Source: Longimicrobiales bacterium
Lineage (GTDB): Bacteria > Gemmatimonadota > Gemmatimonadetes > Longimicrobiales > RSA9
Assembly (NCBI GenBank): GCA_035764935.1
Contig: DASTYK010000129.1
Coordinates: 1 to 53,704 of the forward strand
DNA: 53,704 nucleotides
Direction of reading: 5' to 3'
Positions 2,284-36,815 of the stretch are shown here, one piece after another; within the stretch, counting starts at the first letter, position 1; each line of letters opens with the position of its first letter. The notes beneath the pieces were generated by a model. That model searched no databases. It saw nothing but the letters and a program-made list of their open reading frames with translations, and was not told the DNA's origin. The position numbers and the translations under genes are program-made.

Positions 2284-4788
2284 ATGCCCGCCGCCAAGCT
2301 GCGCGCGGCACTGCAGCGCGCCCGGACGCGTGTCGCGGCGGGGGTGCGTCGACTTCGCCCGCGCCACCTCCTCCTCGCAAACGTCGTCGTCTGGTCCATC
2401 GTCGCGCTGCTCTGGCACCGCTGCGGCATAGCCGGCTGCCCGAACGTCGAGCGGCTGGCGTCCTACCAGCCGGGCGGCGCCACCGTGCTGCTCGACCGCA
2501 ACGGCCAGGAGTTCGCGGACCTCTCGCCAATCGACCACGACGTCGTTGCGCTGGACGCCCTGCCGGAGCACGTGCCAGGTGCGTTCCTGGCGGTGGAGGA
2601 CAAGCGATTCTACGAGCACGGCGGTGTGGACGTGCGACGCGTCGGCGGCGCGTTGCTCGCCAACGCTGGTGCACGCTCGGTCGTCCAGGGGTTCAGCACG
2701 ATCACCATGCAGCTCGCTCGCAACGTGTGGCCCGAGACGCTGCCAGGCCGTGAGCGCACGCTGCAGCGGAAGGTGCTCGAGATCCGGGTGGCGCGCGAGA
2801 TCGAACGCAAGTTCACGAAGAACGAGATCCTGGAGCTGTACCTCAACAACATCTATTTCGGCAGCGGTGCGTGGGGCATCGATGCGGCCGCGCGCAACTA
2901 TTTCGGCAAGCCTGCATCCGAGCTGCGCCTGAGCGAAGCCGCACTGCTCGCGGCCATGCCGAAGTCGCCCGTGCTGTACAACCCGCGCCGGTACCCGGAG
3001 CGCGCACTGGCGCGTCGCAACCTGGTGCTCGAGCTGATGGCGGAGCAGGAGCGGGTGAGCGAAGAGAGCGCAGCGGAGTCGAGCGACGTCCCGCTGCGCG
3101 TTCGTCGTGATCCTCCCGCGCGGCGCGATGGCGAAGAACGTGTCGCGCCCTGGTTCACCGAAGCGGTGCGTCGCGTCCTGGAGGACCGGCTCGGCGAGGA
3201 CGTCTACACGACGAGGCTCGTGGTGCATACGACGCTGGACCCGGCGCTGCAGCGCATCGCGGCCCGCCAGCTGGAGCGGCAACTCGACCGGATCGAGAGC
3301 GGCCATTACGGCGCGTACGACGGTGATCGGTATACGGGTGGTCCGCCGGAGTCGACGCGCTACCTGCAGGGCGCGGTCGTGATGATCGAAGCCGCGAGCG
3401 GTGATGTGCTCGCGCTGGTCGGCGGCCGCGATTACTCGCACTCGCAATTCGATCGCGCAACACGTGCGCGCCGGCAGGCGGGCAGTGCATTCAAGCCGTT
3501 CGTGTACGCCGCAGCACTGCAGCAGGGCTTTGCGGCGAGCCAGCACATTCTGGACGACACACTGCGCATGGAGCTGGAGGGCGGCGAGGTGTGGGAGCCA
3601 GTGAACTACGGCGGCACCTTCAGGGGCTTCATCACGCTGCGCGAGTCGCTGGTCGAGTCGCGCAACATACCGGCGATCCGACTCGCGCAGGATGTCGGCC
3701 TCGCGAACATCGAGCGGCTGGCGCGCAGGGCCGGTATCCGCAGTGACGTACCGGACGTGCCATCGGCGGCGATCGGCTCGGGTGCGGTGACACCGCTCGA
3801 GCTGACCGCGGCCTATACGAGCTTCGCCAACCTGGGCACAGCGGTACGGCCTCGACTGGTGGACCACGTGATCGACGGAGTGGGCGCAGTAGTCTGGCAA
3901 TCGGAGATCGAGGAGGAGGACGTACTCGATCCAGCAGTCGCGTACATCGTGACGGACATGCTTCGGGAAACCGTCGACCAGGGAACAGGAAGAGCGGTGC
4001 GGCAGGTCGGGTTCGGTGCGGCCGCTGCCGGCAAGACCGGCACGACGAACGATGGAGCCGATGTGTGGTTCGTCGGGTACACGCCGGACCTGGTGGCGGG
4101 CGTATGGATGGGCTTCGACGTGCCGGAGCCGATCATCGAGGGCGCGAACGGCGGACAGCTTGCAGCGCCCCTCTGGGGACGGCTCATGGACGCGGTCTAC
4201 GAGAAGCGCCCCACCCCTCCCGAGTGGACGGCGCCCGAGCGCGTCGTGGAGCTTCCGGTGGATCCCGCGACAGGGCTGGTGCTGGTCGAGGGGTGCCGCC
4301 CCGAGAGGGGAGCTGCGATCACGGAGCTGTTCGTCGCAGGCGACGAGCCCGCATCCGTGTGCCCGGCGGGAACCCCCGCGCGAGAGTCCCGCGGATTGCT
4401 CGCCCGGCTTGGCTCCTGGCTCGAGCGGACCTGGCAGCGCGCACTGCACGTGCTCGCGCGGCATATCGGCTCCGAAGACGAGCGGCCGATTCCGCCGCGC
4501 ACGGAGGAGCGCTACATCGGCACGCCGCGACTGCCGCGCGCCGTCGAGGTCGCCGATCCGATCGTGCCGGCCGACTCGTTCCGACCCCGCGTCCGGATCT
4601 TCATACCCGCACTGGATTCCATCCAGCGCCCGGACTCATTGCCACGGGACACCCTGCGCGTGATCACCGACTCCATCCTGCTGCCACCAGCAGCGCCGCC
4701 GGACACGGCGGCACCGTCGGTCGATTCAGTGCGGGTGGATACGATAACGGTCGATACGACGACCGCGGCCGACACGCTGGCTCACTGA
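2284..4788 (+). CDS. penicillin-binding protein 1A (bifunctional transglycosylase/transpeptidase)
   Basis: 834 residues. It polymerises lipid II and cross-links peptidoglycan in the periplasm. One membrane anchor (~residues 30-45) is followed by a conserved CGIAGC pair. The GT51 domain has the catalytic Glu105 in EDKRFYEHGG and the STITMQLARN and NEILELYLNNIYFG motifs. The transpeptidase domain has Ser401-x-x-Lys404 (GSAFKPF), Ser459-Arg-Asn461 and Lys584-Thr-Gly586. All catalytic residues are present. The last ~100 residues are rich in Pro, Asp, Thr and Ser and look disordered. A paralogue lies at 8637-11186 and shares the Cys motif after the anchor. Confidence 0.96.
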   Translation: MPAAKLRAALQRARTRVAAGVRRLRPRHLLLANVVVWSIVALLWHRCGIAGCPNVERLASYQPGGATVLLDRNGQEFADLSPIDHDVVALDALPEHVPGAFLAVEDKRFYEHGGVDVRRVGGALLANAGARSVVQGFSTITMQLARNVWPETLPGRERTLQRKVLEIRVAREIERKFTKNEILELYLNNIYFGSGAWGIDAAARNYFGKPASELRLSEAALLAAMPKSPVLYNPRRYPERALARRNLVLELMAEQERVSEESAAESSDVPLRVRRDPPARRDGEERVAPWFTEAVRRVLEDRLGEDVYTTRLVVHTTLDPALQRIAARQLERQLDRIESGHYGAYDGDRYTGGPPESTRYLQGAVVMIEAASGDVLALVGGRDYSHSQFDRATRARRQAGSAFKPFVYAAALQQGFAASQHILDDTLRMELEGGEVWEPVNYGGTFRGFITLRESLVESRNIPAIRLAQDVGLANIERLARRAGIRSDVPDVPSAAIGSGAVTPLELTAAYTSFANLGTAVRPRLVDHVIDGVGAVVWQSEIEEEDVLDPAVAYIVTDMLRETVDQGTGRAVRQVGFGAAAAGKTGTTNDGADVWFVGYTPDLVAGVWMGFDVPEPIIEGANGGQLAAPLWGRLMDAVYEKRPTPPEWTAPERVVELPVDPATGLVLVEGCRPERGAAITELFVAGDEPASVCPAGTPARESRGLLARLGSWLERTWQRALHVLARHIGSEDERPIPPRTEERYIGTPRLPRAVEVADPIVPADSFRPRVRIFIPALDSIQRPDSLPRDTLRVITDSILLPPAAPPDTAAPSVDSVRVDTITVDTTTAADTLAH

Positions 4789-8636: not shown

Positions 8637-11186
8637 ATGGAGAAGGACGGGCACCCGGGTCCGCGAGGACCGGGCGAGACGCCGGGGCACGGCACGAGCC
8701 CGGAGGACAGGCTGCCGGGCGAGGGCCCCGGCAGGGGCGACGAAGCAGCTGACGGGACTGTCGGCGGCGAGCCGGCAGTGGTGCGCCGTGCTCGCTGGAG
8801 GGATCGTACCCGGGGACGCCGGGTGCTCGCGGCGACGGGCGCGGTGTTCCTGCTGCTGCTCGCGGTCGGCGCGGTTCTCTGGTTCCGGTGCGGCGTTGCG
8901 GGCTGTCCGGACGTGGACATGCTGCGCGGATACATGCCGGACGAGGCATCGGTGATCCTGGATCGTGACGGCGAGGAAGTCGCGAAGCTGTTCGTGACGA
9001 GACGCGTCTACATCGGTCTGGACTCGCTGCCGAAGCACGTGGGCGATGCCTTCGTCGCGATCGAGGACCAGCGGTTCTGGGAACACGGTGGCGTGGACGT
9101 CCGTCGCGTGTTCGGTGCGATGCTGCAGAACGTGCGGTCGGGAGGTGTGGAGGAAGGTGCGAGCACGATCACGATGCAGCTGGCGCGCAACGTCTTCCCG
9201 GACGACCTGCCGGCGAACGAGAAGACGATGTGGCGCAAGATCGGCGAGGCGCGCGTCGCAAGACAGATCGAGGGCCGCTATTCCAAGGAGGAGATTCTCG
9301 AGCTGTACCTGAACCAGATCTATTTCGGTGAGGGTGCGTGGGGCATCGAGGCGGCGGCGCAGGAGTACTTCGGCAAGTCTGCGACGGAGCTGGACCTCGC
9401 GGAGTCCGCGACGCTGGCGGCGCTGCCCCGTGCGCCGTCGCGGCTGAACCCGCGCGTGAACCCGGACCAGGCGCAGACGGAGCGGGAGGTGGTGCTGACA
9501 CGGATGCGGGACCAGGGGCTGATCAGCGCCGAGGAGTACGATGAGGCGGCGGCCGAGGAGCTGGAGCTGCGTCGGGGAGAGCGCAGCACGGAGGAGCAGG
9601 CGCCGTATTTCGTCGAAGCAGTGCGCCGTATCCTGGAGGAGCAGCTCGGCGACGCCGTCTACACTCGTGGCTACCGGATCCACACCACGCTGGACCTCGG
9701 CGCGCAGCGGGTGCTGGAGGAGGAGCTGGCGCAACAGGCGCGCAGGATCGAGTCAGGCGCGTATGGCGGCTATCCTCACGCGACGTACGCGAGCGCACAT
9801 GCCGATTCCGGCGCGACGTTCGAGGACGGCACACCATACCTGCAGACCGCGGGCATCGTGATGGATCCGCGGACGGGCGACGTGCTGGCGCTGGTCGGCG
9901 GCCGCGACTATGACGATTCGAAGTTCAACCGCGCGTTGCAGGCGATGCGGCAGCCCGGCTCCGCCTTCAAGCCGTTCGTGTACGCCGCTGCGATATCGGC
10001 GGGTTATTCGCCCAGCTACCAGCTGATCGATCAGCCGATCCGGCTGATGGTGGACCGCAACCGTTCGTGGGAGCCGAAGAACTACGGCGGCAGCTACGCG
10101 GGCGTGATCAGCCTGCGCAACGCGCTGGTGCAGTCGAAGAACGTCGCCACGGTGCGGCTGTCCGGCGAGGTGGGGCTGTCACGGATCATCGGGCTGGCGG
10201 AGCAGATGGGGCTGGGCCGCATCGAGTCGAATCCGGCGGTGGTGCTGGGCACGAGCGAGGTCACACCGATGCAGCTCGCGGAAGCCTACACGCCGTTCGC
10301 GACGCTCGGGCAGCGCACGCAGCCGCGGCTGGTCGAGCGCGTGGTGGATCGCGACGGCGGCATCGTCTGGGCGCAGCAGCCCAGCTCGCAGCGTGTGCTC
10401 TCGCCCGCGGTGGCGTTCATAACGACGAACATTCTCGAGGACGTGGTCAACCGCGGAACCGGGACGGGTGTGCGAGGCGCGGGGTATCGCGGTCCGGCAG
10501 CGGGCAAGACCGGCACGACGCAGGATGCGGCAGACGTGTGGTTCGTCGGGTTCACGCCGGACGTCGTCGGTGTCATCTGGTACGGGCTGGACCGGCGGCA
10601 GCGCATCCTGAGGGGTGCGACCGGTGGTGAGATCGCCGCCCCCGTCTGGGGGCGGGTAATGCGGGAGATCGCGCCGTCCTCCTCCGACTGGTCGCCGCCT
10701 GCAGGCGTGGAAACGCGCGAGGTGGACGAGACGGGCTCCATCGTCGGCAGCGGCTGTCCGACGTTCGGCGCGACCCACACCGAATATTTCCTGTCCGGAA
10801 CCGCACCCATCGGCGAGTGCTACCGGGATCCGAGCTACTACCAGACGACCTGGATGGACTCGCTGGGTGGCTACCCCTACGACTCGATCTACGGCTACCC
10901 GTACGACACGACGTATACGTACCCGTACGACACGACCTCGGTCAGCAGCGAGGAGCGGGAACGCTTCTGGGAGCGACTCCGCTCGCGCGTCCTCGGTAAG
11001 GAGGAGGAGGATTCCCTCGGCGTGCGCCGTTCGCCGCAGACGACCATCGACACGGCTCCCGACAACCGGTCGCAGCGTGCGCAGCAGCGTCAGCAGCAGG
11101 ACACGACCACTCCGCCGCGCGTGCTGGGCGAGCCCGTGCAGCGCAATCCGCCTCCTGATTCCGGCGGGCTACCGCAGCTGCGGTAG
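8637..11186 (+). CDS. penicillin-binding protein 1A, second paralogue
   Basis: 849 residues, bifunctional peptidoglycan synthase. A ~60-residue Gly/Arg/Asp-rich cytoplasmic leader precedes the membrane anchor (~residues 63-82) and a CGVAGC pair. GT51: Glu143 in EDQRFWEHGG, then STITMQLARN and EEILELYLNQIYFG. Transpeptidase: Ser442-x-x-Lys445, Ser500-Lys-Asn502 and Lys624-Thr-Gly626, all intact. After the catalytic domain come three YPYD repeats (nt ~10874-10935) and a Gln/Thr/Pro-rich tail. The ATG is weakly supported by GGGGCAG; starts inside the leader are possible. It is divergent from paaA across a 191-base gap. Confidence 0.95.
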   Translation: MEKDGHPGPRGPGETPGHGTSPEDRLPGEGPGRGDEAADGTVGGEPAVVRRARWRDRTRGRRVLAATGAVFLLLLAVGAVLWFRCGVAGCPDVDMLRGYMPDEASVILDRDGEEVAKLFVTRRVYIGLDSLPKHVGDAFVAIEDQRFWEHGGVDVRRVFGAMLQNVRSGGVEEGASTITMQLARNVFPDDLPANEKTMWRKIGEARVARQIEGRYSKEEILELYLNQIYFGEGAWGIEAAAQEYFGKSATELDLAESATLAALPRAPSRLNPRVNPDQAQTEREVVLTRMRDQGLISAEEYDEAAAEELELRRGERSTEEQAPYFVEAVRRILEEQLGDAVYTRGYRIHTTLDLGAQRVLEEELAQQARRIESGAYGGYPHATYASAHADSGATFEDGTPYLQTAGIVMDPRTGDVLALVGGRDYDDSKFNRALQAMRQPGSAFKPFVYAAAISAGYSPSYQLIDQPIRLMVDRNRSWEPKNYGGSYAGVISLRNALVQSKNVATVRLSGEVGLSRIIGLAEQMGLGRIESNPAVVLGTSEVTPMQLAEAYTPFATLGQRTQPRLVERVVDRDGGIVWAQQPSSQRVLSPAVAFITTNILEDVVNRGTGTGVRGAGYRGPAAGKTGTTQDAADVWFVGFTPDVVGVIWYGLDRRQRILRGATGGEIAAPVWGRVMREIAPSSSDWSPPAGVETREVDETGSIVGSGCPTFGATHTEYFLSGTAPIGECYRDPSYYQTTWMDSLGGYPYDSIYGYPYDTTYTYPYDTTSVSSEERERFWERLRSRVLGKEEEDSLGVRRSPQTTIDTAPDNRSQRAQQRQQQDTTTPPRVLGEPVQRNPPPDSGGLPQLR

Positions 11187-15326: not shown

Positions 15327-16322
15327 ATGGACGAACGCGACGTCTGGCGGCTCATCGCACGGCTGCAGGCTGGCGAGGCGACGGCTTCGGAGGAAGCCGC
15401 GCTGCGGGAATGGTCGCGCGACCCGGCGAATGCGGAGCTGTTGCGGCAGGTGAAGCGGGTGTGGGAGGCAGGCGCGGTGAAGCAGCGCGACTGGGACGTG
15501 GACGCCGCGTGGGCTCGTGTGGCGGCGCGGCTGGACGAACCGGCACAGGCGCAGCCGACGCTGCGGATCGTGTCGCGGGATGACGCGCCCGCCACGCCGC
15601 GCCGGCGTCGTAGCAGCAGCCGCTGGCTGTATGCGGCGGGCGGGCTGCTGGCGGCGTCGTTGGCGCTGCTGCTGCTGGTGCGCGAGCCTGCGCCGTCGGG
15701 TCCTGTCCCGCTGGTGTTCGCGACGGATGCATCCGGTGGCGAGACGGCGCGGTTGCCGGACGGCACGCTGGTACGGCTCGGTCCCTCGAGCCGTCTGGTG
15801 GTCGCTGGTGAGCGCCGGGTGGAGCTGAGCGGACTCGCCTTTTTCGCCGTGGAGCACGATCCCGCGCGCCCGTTCGAGATCGTGCTGCCTGCGGGGGCGG
15901 TGCGCGTGCTGGGCACCCGTTTCGAGGTGCGCGCGACGGACGACAGCGCGCGCGTCTCCGTGATCGAAGGTCGCGTCGAGGTGAAGGGCGCGACGGAGGC
16001 GATCGAGCTGACATCGGGTGAGGCAACGGCAGTGGCACGGGGCGGCGAGCCGGTCCGTGCGGAGCGGGTCGTTCCGGAGGAAATCGCGTCCTGGATGGGC
16101 CGCACCCTGGTGTTCCAGCGGACGTCGCTCGCCGAGGCGGCTGCCGAAATCGAAACCATGTACGACGTGCAGGTGCGGGTTGCTCCTGCGCTGAGAGAGC
16201 GCACGCTGACGGCGCTGTTCACGGACGAGCCGCTGGACCGGCTGGTTCCGACGCTGTGCCGTGCAGTCGTGGCGCGCTGTACGGTGACCGACACACTCGT
16301 GATGGTGGAGGTACAGGAATGA
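15327..16322 (+). CDS. FecR-family anti-sigma factor / sigma regulator
   Basis: 331 residues. The cytoplasmic N-terminal part (residues 1-95) holds the sigma-binding helices and the conserved Trp-rich WxxDPANAELL region. One membrane segment lies at ~100-118. The periplasmic FecR domain follows (LPDGTLVRLGPSSRL, FAVEHDPARPFEIVLPAG, RVLGTRFEVRA) and then a DUF4974-like C-terminal part (~255-330) that is expected to contact the STN domain of the transporter. Its stop overlaps the SusC start by ATGA. It lies 92 bases after the sigma gene. Confidence 0.93.
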   Translation: MDERDVWRLIARLQAGEATASEEAALREWSRDPANAELLRQVKRVWEAGAVKQRDWDVDAAWARVAARLDEPAQAQPTLRIVSRDDAPATPRRRRSSSRWLYAAGGLLAASLALLLLVREPAPSGPVPLVFATDASGGETARLPDGTLVRLGPSSRLVVAGERRVELSGLAFFAVEHDPARPFEIVLPAGAVRVLGTRFEVRATDDSARVSVIEGRVEVKGATEAIELTSGEATAVARGGEPVRAERVVPEEIASWMGRTLVFQRTSLAEAAAEIETMYDVQVRVAPALRERTLTALFTDEPLDRLVPTLCRAVVARCTVTDTLVMVEVQE

Positions 16323-19300
16323 GTCAGAGGAATCGCGCAGGCACGGGACTGCTGCGCCTGGTCGCACTCGCTGCAGTGGCGCTGGGAGCTGCGCGTCCCG
16401 CAGAGGCGCAGATGCCGGCGCAGATCTCGATGGCGCCGGAGTCGCTGCTGGATCGTCCGGCGCGGATCGACCTGGAAAACGTCACGCTGCCGTATGCGCT
16501 GCTGGAGCTGCAGCGCGGCTCGGGTGTGCCGCTCATCTACAGTCCGTCCCTGCTCGAATCGGAGGGGCCGATCTCGTGCGAGTGCGTGACGCTGACGGTG
16601 CGGCAGGCACTGGAGCGGATGCTGACGGGCACGCGTTTCCGTTTCGAGGATGTCGGTTCGCAGATCCTGATCGAGCGGCGGGCTGCGCCGCGAATCGATC
16701 GTCGAATGGAGAGTTCGGCGCCGCTGGTCACGAGCCCGGTCGCGCCTGCGGAACTCACGCGCGAGGGCGCGGTGCGGGCGCAGGAGAGCCTGTGGTCGAA
16801 GCTGACGGGCGGTGTCGGCGCGATGTTCACGCGCGGCGCTCCGGGCACAATCGTCGGGCGCGTTACCGACGAGGCGACGCAGGAGCCGCTCGCTTCCGTT
16901 CAGGTCTACGTGGTCGGCACGTCGCTCAACGCACTGACGGACGCGAGCGGCAGCTACGCGATCAGCGACGTCCCGGCCGGCCTGTACACGGTCGAGGCGC
17001 AGCGGATCGGGTACGCGAACGCGACGCGCGAGAATGTGAGCGTGCCGGACGGCGGCTCGGTGACGGTCAACCTGTCGATGAGCGTCACGGCGCTGACGCT
17101 GGACGAGATCGTCGCGACCGGTGTCGTGGATCCGACGTCGGCGCGTCGTGTTCCGTTCACGGTTGCGCGCGTGAGCGGCGAGGCGCTGCAGGTGCCGGTC
17201 GACAACGCCGTGAACTCGCTGCAGGGCAAGGTCGCGGGTGCCAGCATCGTGACGAGCCCGCAGCCGGGCGCCGGCGTGAACATCGTGCTGCGTGCGCCGA
17301 CCAGCATCACGAAGTCGAATGCCCCGCTGATCGTGGTGGATGGTGTCATCCTCGCCAGCACGTTCGGCCGCTCGTCGGCGGACATCGATGCGCTCGACAT
17401 CGAGAGCATCGAGATCGTGAAGGGCGCGGCGGCGGCGTCGCTGTACGGGTCGCGGGCGGCGAACGGCGTGATCCAGATCCGCACGCGGCGGGGCACGAAC
17501 CTCGAGGAGGGCGACACCCGGATCACGGTTCGCTCGGAGTTCGGCCAGAACAGCCTGGCCGGGGACATGTCCCGTGCAGCGCACCACCACTACCTGGTGA
17601 ACGCCGCAGGGCAGTACGTGGACGAAGAAGGCGCCGTAGTGGCGCGCGAGGATCGTGTGGAGCGCCCCGCAGCCGAGCGGTTCCTGGACCAGCCGTATCC
17701 CGGCGCGACGTATGACCACGTCGACCAGTTCTTCGATCCCGGCAGCTACTCGACGAACTCGGTCTCGATCGCGCAGAACGGCGCCTCGACGAACTTCTAC
17801 GCATCGTACGCCCGCAGGAACATCGAGGGTGTCGTGCTCGAGCACGGCGGCTACGAGATGAACGACCTGCGGGTCAACCTGGATCACCGGCTGCGCTCCG
17901 ACCTGGCATTCTCGTTGAGCGCCTATCACGCTCGCTCCGAGCGCGACGGACTCCCGGGCAACCTGTTCCTCGACCTCATCCAGACGGAGCCCGACTCCGA
18001 CCTGCTGCAGCCGGATCCGGACGGCACGCCGTACATCTACCAGCCCGATCCGCTGGGCGTCACGGCGAACCCGCTGTACGCGCTCGCGGTCCAGGAAGAA
18101 ACCGAGGAGCGTGCCCGCACGCTGGCGAGCGCGGACCTGCGCTACTCGCCCACCGGCTGGCTGAGCGTGGACGGCAACCTGAGCTACGACCGCTCGGACC
18201 GGCACACGTTCTTCTACTTCCCGCGCGGCAAGAAGACCAGCACGCAGAGCCTGGTCGGCGGCAACGTGGAGCGCGGCAGCGGCGAGACGACGGCGATCAA
18301 CGGCTCGCTGAGCGCGAACCTGCGTCGCAGCTTCGGCGATCTGGCGACCCGCCTCACGCTGCGTGCGCTCATGGAGAGCGAGGACTACAGCTTCTTCTCG
18401 GCAACCGCGGCAAGCCTGTCGGCGGAGGGCGTTCCGGACCTGAACGCGGGTCTCATGCCGACGATCGGGGGGAACACGGAGGAGATCCGCTCGGAGGGCT
18501 ACTTCGCGATCCTCGGCCTCGATTACGCGGGCAAGTACATCGTGGACGCGCTGGTGCGCCGCGACGGCAGCTCGCTCTTCGGGCCTGACGAGCGCTGGCA
18601 GACGTACTACCGCGGCAGCGCTGCCTGGCGCATGGCGGAGGAGGCCTGGTGGCCGCTGGAGCAGGTGAACGAGTTCAAGCTGCGCTACTCGATCGGCACG
18701 GCGGGCGGCCGCCCGTCGTACCTGAACCGCTACGAGACGTACAGTTTCGCTGCGGGCGGTGGGCTCACGAAGTCCACGCTCGGCAACCGCGAGCTGAAGC
18801 CGGAGCGCGCAACGGAGCAGGAGTTCGGCATCGACGCGATCCTGTTCGACCGCTTCTCGGTGCAGCTCAACTACGCGAAGGTGGTGACGGAGGACCAGCT
18901 CCTGCAGATCCCGCTGCCGGCGGCGTTCGGGTTCTCGTCGCAGTGGCAGAACGCGGGCACGGTCGAGGGCAACACGTGGGAAGCGACGATCGAAGCCCGC
19001 GTGCTGCAGAAGCCCGACCTGCAGTGGACCGTCGGCCTGATCGCCGACCGCTCGCGTCACGAGATCACCGAGTTCAACCGTCCCTGCTACCGCGATGGCG
19101 GTTCCAACCAGCTCTACCGCTGCGCGGGCGAGACGCTCGGCACGATGTACGGCAACCACTTCCTGCGCAGCGCTGACGAGCTGCCCGAGGGCGCGCCGGC
19201 CGACGAGTTCATGGTCAACGACGACGGCCTGCTCGTGTGGGTGGGCGCAGGTGGCGACTGGCGCAATCACCAGTGGGGCACGTCCGCCGAGTTCGGCGAC

Positions 19301-19858
19301 ATCACCTACGACTGGGGCACGCCGATCCGCCAGTATGACGAGACCGGCAACCCGGCAGTCGTGCGGATCGGTGATGGCAACCCCGACATGCACCTGGGCC
19401 TGAGCAGCAGCCTGACGTGGAAGGGACTCAACTTCTACGCGCTGTTCGACTCGCAGATCGGTGGCGACGTCTACAACCGGACCAACCAGCGGATGTACCA
19501 GTACTTCCGCAGCGGGGACACGGACCAGGCGGGCAAGCCGGAAGAGCTCAAGAAGACCACCGACTATTACACGGCACTGTACGGCGCGAACGTGATCAAC
19601 GACTGGTTCATTGAGGACGCAACGTACCTGAAGCTGCGCGAGGCATCGCTGCGCTGGCAGGTGCCGACGTCGCTGCTCGATTCCGCACGCCTCGGCGTGA
19701 TCGACGGACTGTCGGTGTTCCTGATCGGTCGCAACCTGCTGACGTTCTCGGATTACAAGGGCTTCGATCCGGAGATCGGCACCCCGCTCGAGCGGATCGA
19801 CAGCTTCGACTATCCGCAGTACCGCACGGTCACGGCCGGCGTCGAGCTTCGCTTCTAG
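16319..19858 (+). CDS. SusC/RagA-type TonB-dependent outer-membrane transporter with STN signalling domain
   Basis: 1179 residues. Signal peptide ~1-30 (AARPAEAQ); STN domain ~48-105 (IDLENVTLPYALLELQRGSG), which signals to FecR; a carboxypeptidase-regulatory-like beta domain ~176-245 (GRVTDEATQEPLASVQVYV); plug ~270-400 with LQGKVAGASIV and SLYGSRAANGVIQIRTRRG; then a ~22-strand barrel ending in a terminal Phe (GVELRF). It imports a large ligand, probably peptide or glycan, using TonB energy. The downstream peptidase gene hints at peptide, but this is inference. Translation is coupled to FecR. Confidence 0.95.
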   Translation: MSQRNRAGTGLLRLVALAAVALGAARPAEAQMPAQISMAPESLLDRPARIDLENVTLPYALLELQRGSGVPLIYSPSLLESEGPISCECVTLTVRQALERMLTGTRFRFEDVGSQILIERRAAPRIDRRMESSAPLVTSPVAPAELTREGAVRAQESLWSKLTGGVGAMFTRGAPGTIVGRVTDEATQEPLASVQVYVVGTSLNALTDASGSYAISDVPAGLYTVEAQRIGYANATRENVSVPDGGSVTVNLSMSVTALTLDEIVATGVVDPTSARRVPFTVARVSGEALQVPVDNAVNSLQGKVAGASIVTSPQPGAGVNIVLRAPTSITKSNAPLIVVDGVILASTFGRSSADIDALDIESIEIVKGAAAASLYGSRAANGVIQIRTRRGTNLEEGDTRITVRSEFGQNSLAGDMSRAAHHHYLVNAAGQYVDEEGAVVAREDRVERPAAERFLDQPYPGATYDHVDQFFDPGSYSTNSVSIAQNGASTNFYASYARRNIEGVVLEHGGYEMNDLRVNLDHRLRSDLAFSLSAYHARSERDGLPGNLFLDLIQTEPDSDLLQPDPDGTPYIYQPDPLGVTANPLYALAVQEETEERARTLASADLRYSPTGWLSVDGNLSYDRSDRHTFFYFPRGKKTSTQSLVGGNVERGSGETTAINGSLSANLRRSFGDLATRLTLRALMESEDYSFFSATAASLSAEGVPDLNAGLMPTIGGNTEEIRSEGYFAILGLDYAGKYIVDALVRRDGSSLFGPDERWQTYYRGSAAWRMAEEAWWPLEQVNEFKLRYSIGTAGGRPSYLNRYETYSFAAGGGLTKSTLGNRELKPERATEQEFGIDAILFDRFSVQLNYAKVVTEDQLLQIPLPAAFGFSSQWQNAGTVEGNTWEATIEARVLQKPDLQWTVGLIADRSRHEITEFNRPCYRDGGSNQLYRCAGETLGTMYGNHFLRSADELPEGAPADEFMVNDDGLLVWVGAGGDWRNHQWGTSAEFGDITYDWGTPIRQYDETGNPAVVRIGDGNPDMHLGLSSSLTWKGLNFYALFDSQIGGDVYNRTNQRMYQYFRSGDTDQAGKPEELKKTTDYYTALYGANVINDWFIEDATYLKLREASLRWQVPTSLLDSARLGVIDGLSVFLIGRNLLTFSDYKGFDPEIGTPLERIDSFDYPQYRTVTAGVELRF

Positions 19859-33375: not shown

Positions 33376-34020
33376 ATGACGGAACCGGCCGGCGGCTCGA
33401 GCGCCGACCTGATCGTTTATGCCGACTACGTGTGCCCCTTCTGCTACCTCGGCGAGGTGGCGATAGCGCCGCTCCGCGAGGAAGGCGTGCGCATCGAGAA
33501 CCGGCCATTCGAGCTGCGCCCCGCGCCGACGCCGTTGCCGGACATGGACGAGCCGCGGTACCGCGACAGCTGGGAGCAGAGCGTACTGCCGCTGGCAGCG
33601 GCGCTCGGCGCGCCGGCAATGAAGCGGCCAACGGTCTCGACGCGTACGCGCAAGGCGCACGAGGCCGCCGCGTTCGCGCGCGAGCACGGCGCCGGAGATG
33701 CCATGCACCGCGCGATCTACGAGGCGTACTTCCTCGAGCAGCGCGACATCGGCCGTGTCGATGTGCTGGTCGAGATCGGCGCGTCGGTCGGCCTCGATCG
33801 CATGGCACTCAAGATCGCGCTCGACATCGACCGCTACACCGATGAGGTCGTGGCGCATGAGGTGGAGGCAGCACGCATCGGCATCACGGCCGTGCCGGCC
33901 CACCTCGCGGCCGGCGCGGATGGCAGGTATCGACTGATGATGGGCGTGCGCCCGACGGACGACGTGCGCGCGCTCCTTGCCGCGGGCAGTCTGGCCCGCG
34001 ATTCCGGAGACGACGAATGA
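33376..34020 (+). CDS. DsbA/FrnE-like thiol oxidoreductase
   Basis: 214 residues. The N-terminal thioredoxin strand leads to VCPFCYLGE, with the redox pair Cys20-Pro-Phe-Cys23, and the helical insert of the DsbA fold follows (EAAAFAREHGAGDAMHRAIYEAYF, VLVEIGASVGLD). A cis-Pro (ITAVPAHL) is present. No signal peptide is visible, so it is cytoplasmic, like FrnE. AAGGAG nine bases upstream of the ATG sets the start. It is the first gene of an operon with a small hypothetical gene and the DEAD-box protein. Confidence 0.92.
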   Translation: MTEPAGGSSADLIVYADYVCPFCYLGEVAIAPLREEGVRIENRPFELRPAPTPLPDMDEPRYRDSWEQSVLPLAAALGAPAMKRPTVSTRTRKAHEAAAFAREHGAGDAMHRAIYEAYFLEQRDIGRVDVLVEIGASVGLDRMALKIALDIDRYTDEVVAHEVEAARIGITAVPAHLAAGADGRYRLMMGVRPTDDVRALLAAGSLARDSGDDE

Positions 34021-34340
34021 AGTACGTACGAATGACATCGGCGCCGATCCGCCAGGCGCTCGACCTGGCGCGCGAGATCCTCAAGGAACGACTGCCGCTG
34101 GAGGAGGTCGCGAGCGACGCCCACTCGGTCACACTGAGTGGCGGCGACGGCACCGTGAAGATCCACGCGCACCGGCACGGCCTCGACACCCAGCTGGACG
34201 TGAGCACGGATCAGCTGCGCACGTCGCGGCTCGACAACGAAGTGCAGTACTGGCTCACGATGCTGCCGTACCAGCCGGGTGAGCTGCGCGGCCGCGGTTC
34301 GGCACTGCCGGCCGGGCTGTCGCGCCAGGGTGGCACGTGA
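34017..34340 (+). CDS. hypothetical protein, 107 aa
   Basis: Overlaps the stop of the DsbA-like gene by ATGA and the start of the DEAD-box gene by GTGA, so it is translated between them. It is a soluble protein, helical at the start (IRQALDLAREILKERLPLEEV), then strands (VTLSGGDGTVKIHAHRH). No cysteine and no membrane segment. No family was recognised; the coupling suggests a link to the RNA-binding neighbour. Confidence 0.75.
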   Translation: MKYVRMTSAPIRQALDLAREILKERLPLEEVASDAHSVTLSGGDGTVKIHAHRHGLDTQLDVSTDQLRTSRLDNEVQYWLTMLPYQPGELRGRGSALPAGLSRQGGT

Positions 34341-35935
34341 GTGAGGGACTGAGCGAGCTTGGCCTGCGGGCGGAGCTGGTCGCGGCCGTTGCCGAGCGCG
34401 GCTTCGATGCACCGTCCGCACTCCAGCGGTCGGCGATCCCGGTGCTCCGCCGGGGCGGCAACGCCGTGCTCCACGCCTCCTATGGCTCCGGCCTGACCGG
34501 AGCCTACGGCCTCGCCCTGCTCGACCGGCTGGCCGATGCAGGTGACGCTGCGGGACCCCAGGTGCTGATCGTCACGCCAACGGGGGCGCGTGCCGCTTCC
34601 GCTGCCGACGAGATTGCCGCGCTCGCGGGCACACTGCAGCTGCGTATCGCCGCGCTGGCACCCGGCTGGCGCGACGCGGAATCGGCCAACGTCGTCACCG
34701 GCTCACTGCAGAACGTCGCGGGCGCGATCGGTCGCTCGGCACTCAAGCTGGAGTCGGTGCAGGCGATCGTGCTGGAATCGCTGTCGACCCTGCTGGAGGA
34801 AGGCGGCGCGGAGCTGGACGCGATCATGACCGCGGTGCCGCGCGACGCACAGCGCGTGATCACCACTGCCACATACGACAGCGGCGTCGAGCGCTTCGTC
34901 GAGCAGCATGCCCGGCGGGCGATCCGCATTCCGGCCCGCGCCGCGGACCGCGCGGCGACCGCTGCGGCTGAGCCGGCCGGCGAGGTCCATTACCTGGTCG
35001 TCCCGGAGTTCGGCAAGGACGACGCGCTCGCTCGGCTCCTCGTCCGTTCGAGTGGCGAGGACGTCCTGGTTACGACGCGTTCGGCGCGACGCGCCGAGCT
35101 CGTGCGCGGACTGCTCGCAGCGCGGGGATACGACACCGCCCGGATCGAGACGCTGCGCGTCGAGAGCGCGATCGAGGCACCGCCGCGCGGCGCGCGCGTG
35201 ATCGCCTACGACGCGCCCATGGATGCCGCGACGCTGACGCACCTGCATACCGGCTCGGGCATCGTACTGGTCACACCCGGCGAGCTGGCGCACCTGCGGC
35301 TGCTGGCGGCGGAAGCGAACGTGACGCTGCGCGCCGAAAAGGCCCGTGCCGGCGATCGCGACGTCGGTTCCGCGTTCCGCGCCGAGATCCGCAGGGCGTT
35401 GCAGGAGCGTGATCTCGACGCACAGCTGCTGCTGCTCGAGCCGCTGTTCGAGGAACACTCCGCGGCCGAGGTCGCCGCGGCACTCAGCTCGTTGCTGCGC
35501 GAGCGCAGGGCGGGTGCACCCGCCGTCGAGCGCCGGGCGCCTGCCGGCACCGTCGAGGAGGCCAGCGGCTCCGCCGGCGCGCCCTCGACATTCACCCGGC
35601 TGTTCTTCTCGATCGGCTCACGCGACGGAATCCGCCCGGGCGACCTGGTGGGCGCGATCACAGGGGAAGCGAACGTCACGGGCGCGCAGGTCGGACGCAT
35701 CGAGATGCGCGACACGTTCTCGGTCGTCGAAGTCGCGGCGGACGCCGCCGAGCGGGTGATCAAGGCGCTGAACGGCACGACCATGCGTACCCGCGCCCTG
35801 CGCGTCGATTACGACCGGCGCGGCAGCGCGCCAGCCGGCCGTGAGCGGCCCGCCGGTGGACGCGAGCGTGGCCGGCCACAACACGCCGCGGGGGATCGGC
35901 CGAGGCGACCGCGGCCGCCGCGGGATCGGGAGTAG
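34337..35935 (+). CDS. DEAD-box-like protein with degenerate ATPase motifs and intact DbpA RNA-binding domain
   Basis: 532 residues, GTG start. A Q-motif-like PSALQRSAIPVL opens a RecA-like pair, but the Walker A position reads ASYGSGLTG: Leu53 replaces the catalytic Lys. The DEAD position reads LESLS (146-150), motif III reads TATYD for SAT, and the HRxGRxGR region reads HLHTGSGIVLVTPGE without arginine fingers. The C-terminal part (LFFSIGSRDGIRPGDLVGAI, FSVVEVAADAAERVI) is a good DbpA-type domain that binds structured 23S rRNA in DbpA. The Arg/Gly-rich tail is disordered. It is probably an RNA-binding pseudo-helicase. Confidence 0.85.
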   Translation: MSEGLSELGLRAELVAAVAERGFDAPSALQRSAIPVLRRGGNAVLHASYGSGLTGAYGLALLDRLADAGDAAGPQVLIVTPTGARAASAADEIAALAGTLQLRIAALAPGWRDAESANVVTGSLQNVAGAIGRSALKLESVQAIVLESLSTLLEEGGAELDAIMTAVPRDAQRVITTATYDSGVERFVEQHARRAIRIPARAADRAATAAAEPAGEVHYLVVPEFGKDDALARLLVRSSGEDVLVTTRSARRAELVRGLLAARGYDTARIETLRVESAIEAPPRGARVIAYDAPMDAATLTHLHTGSGIVLVTPGELAHLRLLAAEANVTLRAEKARAGDRDVGSAFRAEIRRALQERDLDAQLLLLEPLFEEHSAAEVAAALSSLLRERRAGAPAVERRAPAGTVEEASGSAGAPSTFTRLFFSIGSRDGIRPGDLVGAITGEANVTGAQVGRIEMRDTFSVVEVAADAAERVIKALNGTTMRTRALRVDYDRRGSAPAGRERPAGGRERGRPQHAAGDRPRRPRPPRDRE

Positions 35936-36292
35936 GAGCGGTCGTTTTTACCACTGAGAGCACAGAGGGCACGGAGGGCACGGACGGCGTCGATGCTTCC
36001 GTGGTGGTCGGCAGCTTTCGAGGCTGTGCTCGATGCAGGAACGGCGATTCACCGCAGAGACGCGAAGGGCGCTGAGGACCCCTGCAAGGCCTGACGGCAC
36101 GCGTTCACCTGTTGCGGCAGAAGTTCGGAGCAATTGCGAACGTGAACAACAGTTTTTCTGTTGTGCTCTCCGCGATCTCAGCGCCTCAGCGGTGAACATC
36201 ATCCGTTCATGTTTGCGAGCCGTGACATGAACCGACTCTGCAGCTCCTGCATGGACCAACTGCACTCAGTGCTCTCGGGTAAGACAAAGAAA
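35936..36292. repeat. gene-free region with interspersed repeats, copy 3
   Basis: The gap before the HU terminator holds no gene. A left unit (from ~35945, CACTGAGAGCACAGAGGGC with tandem CACGGAGGG/CACGGACGG words) is followed by a second inverted pair: TTCACCGCAGAGACGCG (36048-) and its imperfect complement ending near 36195. A small perfect hairpin, ACAACAG-TTTTT-CTGTTGT, lies at 36146-36164. Confidence 0.65.
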
Positions 36293-36319
36293 AGAGCCAC
36301 GGCAACTCGCCGTGGCTCT
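36293..36319 (-). terminator. intrinsic terminator of the HU gene
   Basis: AGAGCCACGGC (36293-36303) and its exact complement (36309-36319) close a five-base loop. On the minus strand the stem is followed by TTTTCTTTGTCTT, 24 bases after the HU stop. Confidence 0.92.
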
Positions 36320-36343
36320 CTTTGATTCGATGCTGTGTTCGCG

Positions 36344-36634
36344 TCAGTCGGGCTTTACGGCATCCTTGAGGGCCTTGCCCGGGCGGAACGAGGCAGAAAC
36401 GGTCGGTCCGATACGGATCTCCGTTCCCGTTCGGGGATTGCGACCCGTGCGCGCCTTGCGCTCACGCGTCTCGAATGTGCCGAAGCCCGAGATCTGAACT
36501 CGGTCCCCGCGCTTCAGCGCCTCCGGGATGAGACCGGACTCCGGGTCGAAGAGCGAGTCGACGGCGCGCGTAGCATCCGCCTTGCTCATCCCGGTCCGGT
36601 TCGAGAGCTCCTGCACCAGATCCGACTTGTTCAT
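36344..36634 (-). CDS. HU/IHF-family DNA-binding protein
   Basis: 96 residues. N-terminal helices MNKSDLVQELSNRTGMSKADATRAV and the DNA-binding arm around FGTFETRERKARTGRNPRTG, with the conserved Pro after NPRTG for bending DNA, then a C-terminal ALKDAV. HU dimers bend and compact DNA. AGGAG seven bases upstream of the ATG fixes the start. Single-gene unit with its own terminator. The open frame further upstream carries no homology. Confidence 0.96.
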   Translation of the reverse strand: MNKSDLVQELSNRTGMSKADATRAVDSLFDPESGLIPEALKRGDRVQISGFGTFETRERKARTGRNPRTGTEIRIGPTVSASFRPGKALKDAVKPD

Positions 36635-36792
36635 TGGATCGCTCCTGGATAATAGATCGCACGAGGCAGCAGGGGACAAAAAAACCGCGGCCATCGTTCC
36701 GTGCAGCGGCGACGCTGAGCCGGGCAGAACGAGCGAGCCGCTCTTGCGCGGTCCAACTCCTGCGAACAACTTGCGGCACACACTCGCCGGAC

Positions 36793-36815
36793 CACCAGTA
36801 AGCATATCACTGGTG
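36793..36815. repeat. inverted repeat in the HU/histidine kinase divergent region
   Basis: CACCAGT (36793-36799) and ACTGGTG (36809-36815) are perfect complements around nine AT-rich bases. It lies between the divergent HU and histidine kinase genes and could be an operator for either; no regulator is known. Confidence 0.4.

Follow-up and report, generated by a model that had tools for sequence, protein, structure and literature searches.

The window, a stretch of 53,704 nucleotides from a Longimicrobiales bacterium, encodes a protein that probably derives from a DeaD/DbpA-type helicase, has lost catalysis and is kept throughout its class as an ATP-independent RNA-binding protein. The initial annotation had called it a DEAD-box pseudohelicase whose DbpA RNA-binding domain (RBD) is intact, and this description is strongly supported: PF03880 scores 83.4 bits (cut-off 25.6) and is present in 25 of 25 members. 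The gene and its elements are as follows.

34337..35935, + strand: pseudohelicase open reading frame, 532 aa, with a GTG start at 34337 and a stop codon ending at 35935; open frame, orthologues in the order, matches to PF00270 and PF03880
34400..34447, + strand: Q-motif-like segment (GFDAPSALQRSAIPVL), residues 22-37, Gln30 kept, placed by alignment
34472..34507, + strand: degenerate Walker A (HASYGSGLTGAY), residues 46-57, Lys replaced by Leu53
34775..34786, + strand: degenerate motif II, ESLS for DEAD, residues 147-150 (E147-S148-L149-S150)
34865..34873, + strand: motif III remnant TAT, residues 177-179 (T177-A178-T179)
35198..35296, + strand: collapsed motif VI region, residues 288-320, immediately preceded by the deletion of the QxxR/motif V stretch
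35372..35506, + strand: residues 346-390, a helical segment resembling the dimerisation domain of DeaD, with PF25399 below its cut-off
35597..35806, + strand: DbpA RNA-binding domain (RRM), residues 421-490, PF03880 at 1.1e-23
35822..35932, + strand: arginine-rich low-complexity C-terminal tail, residues 496-532, from the sequence; pLDDT below 50 over most of it

Besides the DbpA domain, Pfam recognised the DEAD domain (PF00270, residues 28-186, 1.3e-13) in the window protein. The helical segment reached 18.3 bits with PF25399 (cut-off 23), and 10 of 25 members matched this profile at E≤0.01. Many relatives have an RG/RGG-rich C-terminal tail. The best NCBIfam match was DbpA, with a score of 120.6 against a cut-off of 524. 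Searched against solved structures with phmmer, the whole protein matched DEAD-box helicases, with CshA at the top, and the RBD alone matched the structures of DbpA and YxiN, its nearest relatives by sequence among solved structures. We built an AlphaFold2 model of the protein with 25 orthologues. Its pLDDT is 83.9 and is low only in the linker (residues 393-415), in a loop near 338-341 and in the tail. We aligned the model with Foldseek: it matches the DbpA-RNA complexes 7pli and 7pmq end to end (E about 1e-24) and the DEAD-box cores 1hv8, 5ivl and 7pli at E 1e-20 to 1e-24. The two-RecA DEAD-box fold is thus kept in the predicted model. The TM-scores of the full model against DbpA are low (0.38-0.45), probably because of domain orientation.

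The catalytic motifs are largely gone from this core. The residues reported earlier at three of them are correct on re-reading: Walker A is 48-SYGSGLTG-55, with Leu53 at the Lys position and no GKT, DEAD is ESLS and SAT is TAT. The last change is mild and, taken alone, would be weak evidence for catalytic loss; motif III is altered further in relatives, to SAE or LPx. The retained Q-motif-like segment (GFDAPSALQ, with Gln30) and the missing motif VI arginines were also rightly described, the motif VI region (YDAPMDAATLTHLHTGSG) having no HRxGRxxR. The largest lesion had been overlooked: the QxxR/motif V stretch (TDVAARGLD-like) is missing from RecA2, and PF00271 (Helicase_C) matched none of 25 members. 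Alignment to E. coli DeaD and DbpA and to true helicases of the same phylum shows degeneration in motifs Ia, Ib and GG as well. With these lesions in the ATPase motifs and in QxxR, V, VI, Ia, Ib and GG, the core would have neither an ATP site nor an RNA clamp left. For the window protein, the ATP-independent RNA-binding role put forward earlier is the most likely one, and the ribosome-associated role, suggested by the domain, is plausible.

The nature of the bound RNA is the point on which the main rival differs. The G-reading motif of the RBD is intact (V452-G453-R454-I455). The RBDs of YxiN and Hera read G through main-chain amides at I/V-G-x-I/V (PMC3695512), the RRM of DbpA uses hairpin 92 to bring the enzyme to nascent ribosomes (PMC7973409), and the well-characterised DbpA-domain proteins work in 50S maturation (PMC8190605). 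Given the V-G-x-I motif, the 50S role and the hairpin 92 recruitment, we prefer a scaffold that works on rRNA or pre-ribosomes without ATP, and ribosome binding is what we infer from these features. DbpA-type domains differ in their targets, the related RRM of Hera reading GGGPyr and not the hairpin 92 loop (PMC3695512); the RBD studied here could therefore bind another RNA. The pseudohelicase would then act on mRNA or small RNA, in translation or decay and not on ribosomes, and CsdA does also take part in the initiation of translation and in RNA decay (PMC8190605). mRNA is thus the main rival target, but we think it unlikely given the 50S work of the characterised proteins and the closeness of this RBD to those of DbpA and YxiN.

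The pseudohelicase gene lies in an operon, next to the following features.

33409..33972, + strand: gene before the partner, with a DsbA-like thioredoxin domain (PF01323, 5.3e-22); conserved upstream family
34017..34340, + strand: conserved uncharacterised partner gene of about 100 aa, its TGA overlapping the pseudohelicase GTG
36290..36322, no strand: two-way intrinsic-terminator-like hairpin with a stem of 11-15 pairs, between the pseudohelicase operon and the HU gene
36344..36805, - strand: convergent gene for an HU-type DNA-binding protein (PF00216, 1.1e-30); this downstream family occurs in 49 loci

The TGA of the DsbA-like gene (34018-34020) overlaps the ATG of the partner gene (ATGA), and with these gene overlaps the pseudohelicase is translationally coupled to the partner, as it is throughout the order. 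The partner has 107 aa in the window and 14 invariant residues in its family, which stands upstream of the pseudohelicase in 69 of the 104 loci compared, mostly at 60 nt or less. It matched no family in Pfam or NCBIfam. Its AlphaFold2 model is confident (pLDDT 87.8) and had no Foldseek match at E≤0.001: a KA1 domain came first at 1.5e-3, followed by BamC and helix-grip folds, and we therefore assign no fold to the partner. Weak matches to the partner elsewhere in the class (E 1e-4 to 1e-15) are of uncertain orthology. Elsewhere in the window we noted two class A penicillin-binding proteins (transglycosylase and transpeptidase) close together at 2284-4788 and 8637-11186, and a TonB-dependent receptor with a carboxypeptidase-regulatory domain at 16256-19858. 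We found no tRNA in the window.

The set of helicases in each genome bears on a second rival, in which the protein dimerises through its DeaD-type helical domain with active DEAD-box helicases and modulates them as a dominant-negative or regulatory partner. The weak similarity to the DeaD dimerisation domain fits this account, as does the presence of two DbpA-domain proteins, a true DeaD and the pseudohelicase, in the genomes of one family (f3). However, in the window genome the pseudohelicase is the only DbpA-domain protein, and the remaining helicases, three intact RhlE-like DEAD-box proteins, have no DbpA domain, as far as their sequences reach; one of the three, C96, is cut off by its contig end before its tail. 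Most genomes of family f2, several of them in a single contig, also lack a second DbpA-domain protein; in the single-contig genomes G012, G022, G034 and G036 the pseudohelicase is the only one. An obligate heterodimer with DeaD is therefore not general, and we consider a regulatory partner of this kind distinctly improbable. For the same reason the protein is more than a redundant companion of an active DeaD: we reject redundancy as a general account, given the window and f2 genomes with no second DbpA-domain protein, although the true DeaD need not be lost from every genome.

The pseudohelicase is widespread in the class. Each of the 41 genomes searched in the order gave a match, which is nearly always an orthologue (in at least one genome, G007, it is a true helicase only), and PF03880 was detected in 40 of the 41. 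Where full length, the orthologues of the order are about 33-49% identical. Other families or orders of the class with copies are f5 (L141-L160), f4 (L181-L184) and f7 (L143, L173-L175), and there is also a deep clade with the pseudohelicase (L069, L077, L085, L096 and L102). A single-protein search of genome contigs, at the tblastn level, gave no match, but an alignment-based scan did find copies. The matches in a sister class (f9, E 1e-32 to 1e-39) look like ordinary helicases, judged from the matches. In a scan of one genome per species the best 80 relatives were nearly all in records titled Gemmatimonadota, although copies outside this phylum could escape the two RBD peptide patterns used. 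The genomes sampled are mostly MAGs. Some MAGs titled Gammaproteobacteria (L055, L063, L071 and L075) contain the pseudohelicase. The titles are probably wrong, since the copies L071 and L075 share 94-95% identity with L022, which comes from a genome of the window's order.

We compared 124 distinct pseudohelicase sequences with 16 true DEAD-box helicases from the same phylum. All 16 true helicases have DEAD, HRxGR and motif V, whereas none of the 124 pseudohelicases has any of the three. GKT is likewise found in 16/16 true helicases, and it is kept in 18/124 pseudohelicases, which belong to one family (f3) and the deep clade. The survey of orthologues proposed earlier thus finds DEAD, motif V and motif VI intact in none of them, but the P-loop Lys is retained in those 18. 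The P-loop glycines Gly50 and Gly52 persist in most members and the Q motif Gln30 in 98 of the 124, Gln30 being gone in the sister order. In the RBD, Gly453 is conserved in 123 and Arg486 in 122 of the 124 sequences. Chance or sequencing error is ruled out by losses common to 124 distinct sequences.

The losses are graded along the phylogeny. In a tree of 75 proteins a branch with SH-aLRT 100 separates the 60 pseudohelicases from all the others; the tree comes from a quick search and its inner forks are uncertain. The sampled pseudohelicases are one clade, and by parsimony DEAD changed once and the P-loop three times. GKT is retained in family f3 (Longimicrobiaceae-like) and in the deep clade, which have DGAS-like letters at DEAD, families f1 (that of the window) and f2 have lost the P-loop Lys, and the sister order (f5, L141-L160) has lost the P-loop and Q-motif region and kept the RBD. 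On this pattern, DEAD, V and VI would have gone first, the P-loop next and the Q motif last. Many copies of the sister order have long RGD/RGG-rich tails, and their neighbours are different, with a thymidine-kinase-like gene downstream in many. Since the P-loop Lys is kept in f3 and the deep clade, nucleotide binding may survive there, but hardly in the window protein, and the intact P-loop of some relatives makes ATP-independence uncertain for the family as a whole. The residues that persist in the P-loop and Q motif could be taken as marks of a still-active, non-canonical ATPase in which other residues replace the lost catalytic ones. This is very improbable, as the P-loop Lys, the DEAD Glu and the motif VI Arg are all missing from the window protein, and the sister order has lost even the P-loop region and Q motif with the RBD intact.

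The degenerate core is under purifying selection. Between close pairs the dN/dS ratio (Nei-Gojobori) is about 0.06-0.43 for the RecA core, mostly 0.1-0.4, and about 0-0.6 for the RBD, which is often below the core and low in most groups, with the highest ratios in f3 pairs. Such selection on a dead core argues that the core does something. Local decay of one gene is ruled out, since the losses are class-wide, and that the gene is decaying without present function is hardly credible, for all its missing motifs and a core that diverges fast between families, when frames are intact across the class, dN/dS is well below 1 in core and RBD, synteny is conserved and the operon is coupled. For the order, the dN/dS ratios already contradict such decay.

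We favour an ATP-independent RNA-binding protein in which the DbpA-type RRM and the Arg-rich tail would hold RNA; the likeliest target is rRNA in pre-ribosomes. The RecA core would no longer clamp RNA through its own motifs; it may serve as a rigid scaffold or as a docking surface for a protein, perhaps the small operon partner or active helicases. Where a lineage keeps GKT but lacks the DEAD Glu, ATP binding by the core may persist as a static switch. A more specific version, which we advance tentatively and with less than even confidence, is that the protein is a dedicated, dead ribosome-assembly factor with a new partner of about 100 aa; that no other DbpA-domain protein exists in most of one lineage, where it takes the place of the active enzyme; and that the steps of loss (DEAD/V/VI, P-loop, Q motif) are seen in living lineages. 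The clade could show if a dead helicase can serve in ribosome assembly, and its graded motif loss separates the ATPase from the RNA-scaffold roles of DbpA/DeaD proteins.

Such proteins are easily overlooked. Routine annotation would tend to label them helicases, and surveys that require every motif leave them out, as a cyanobacterial survey did by design (PMC8190605). We found nothing relevant on Gemmatimonadota DEAD-box helicases in the open-access literature, where pseudohelicases are rare and the DEAD-box-like example is eukaryotic. Among known systems, DbpA/YxiN (PDB 7pli, 7pmq and 3moj) is the best structure match: it has the same two RecA-like domains and C-terminal DbpA-type RRM, with the V/I-G-x-I motif kept in the pseudohelicase, but the latter lacks the catalytic and RNA-clamping motifs and has an added helical segment and an Arg-rich tail. 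The domain order, RecA1-RecA2-helical segment-RBD-Arg/Gly tail, is that of E. coli DeaD (CsdA), which is, however, an active ATPase, whereas DEAD, motif V and motif VI are all absent from the pseudohelicase clade. The PriA pseudohelicase of Deinococcus radiodurans is also a bacterial helicase homologue without helicase activity that is retained in its lineage, but it is a DNA replication-restart protein and not a DEAD-box RNA helicase (PMC4504706). The closest precedent is Utp25 (Def) of the eukaryotic SSU-processome, although the evidence does not support common descent of the loss. Utp25 folds like a DEAD-box protein, but its motifs are vestigial and the DEAD sequence is missing; it is catalytically dead yet conserved, is essential for yeast growth and is, according to its authors, the first fully validated pseudohelicase (PMC9539457). 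It differs in being eukaryotic and in its accessory region, which is N-terminal and disordered, a C-terminal RRM not being described there (PMC9539457). As in Utp25, in the protein described here the predicted fold is kept, the catalytic motifs are lost and the gene is conserved.
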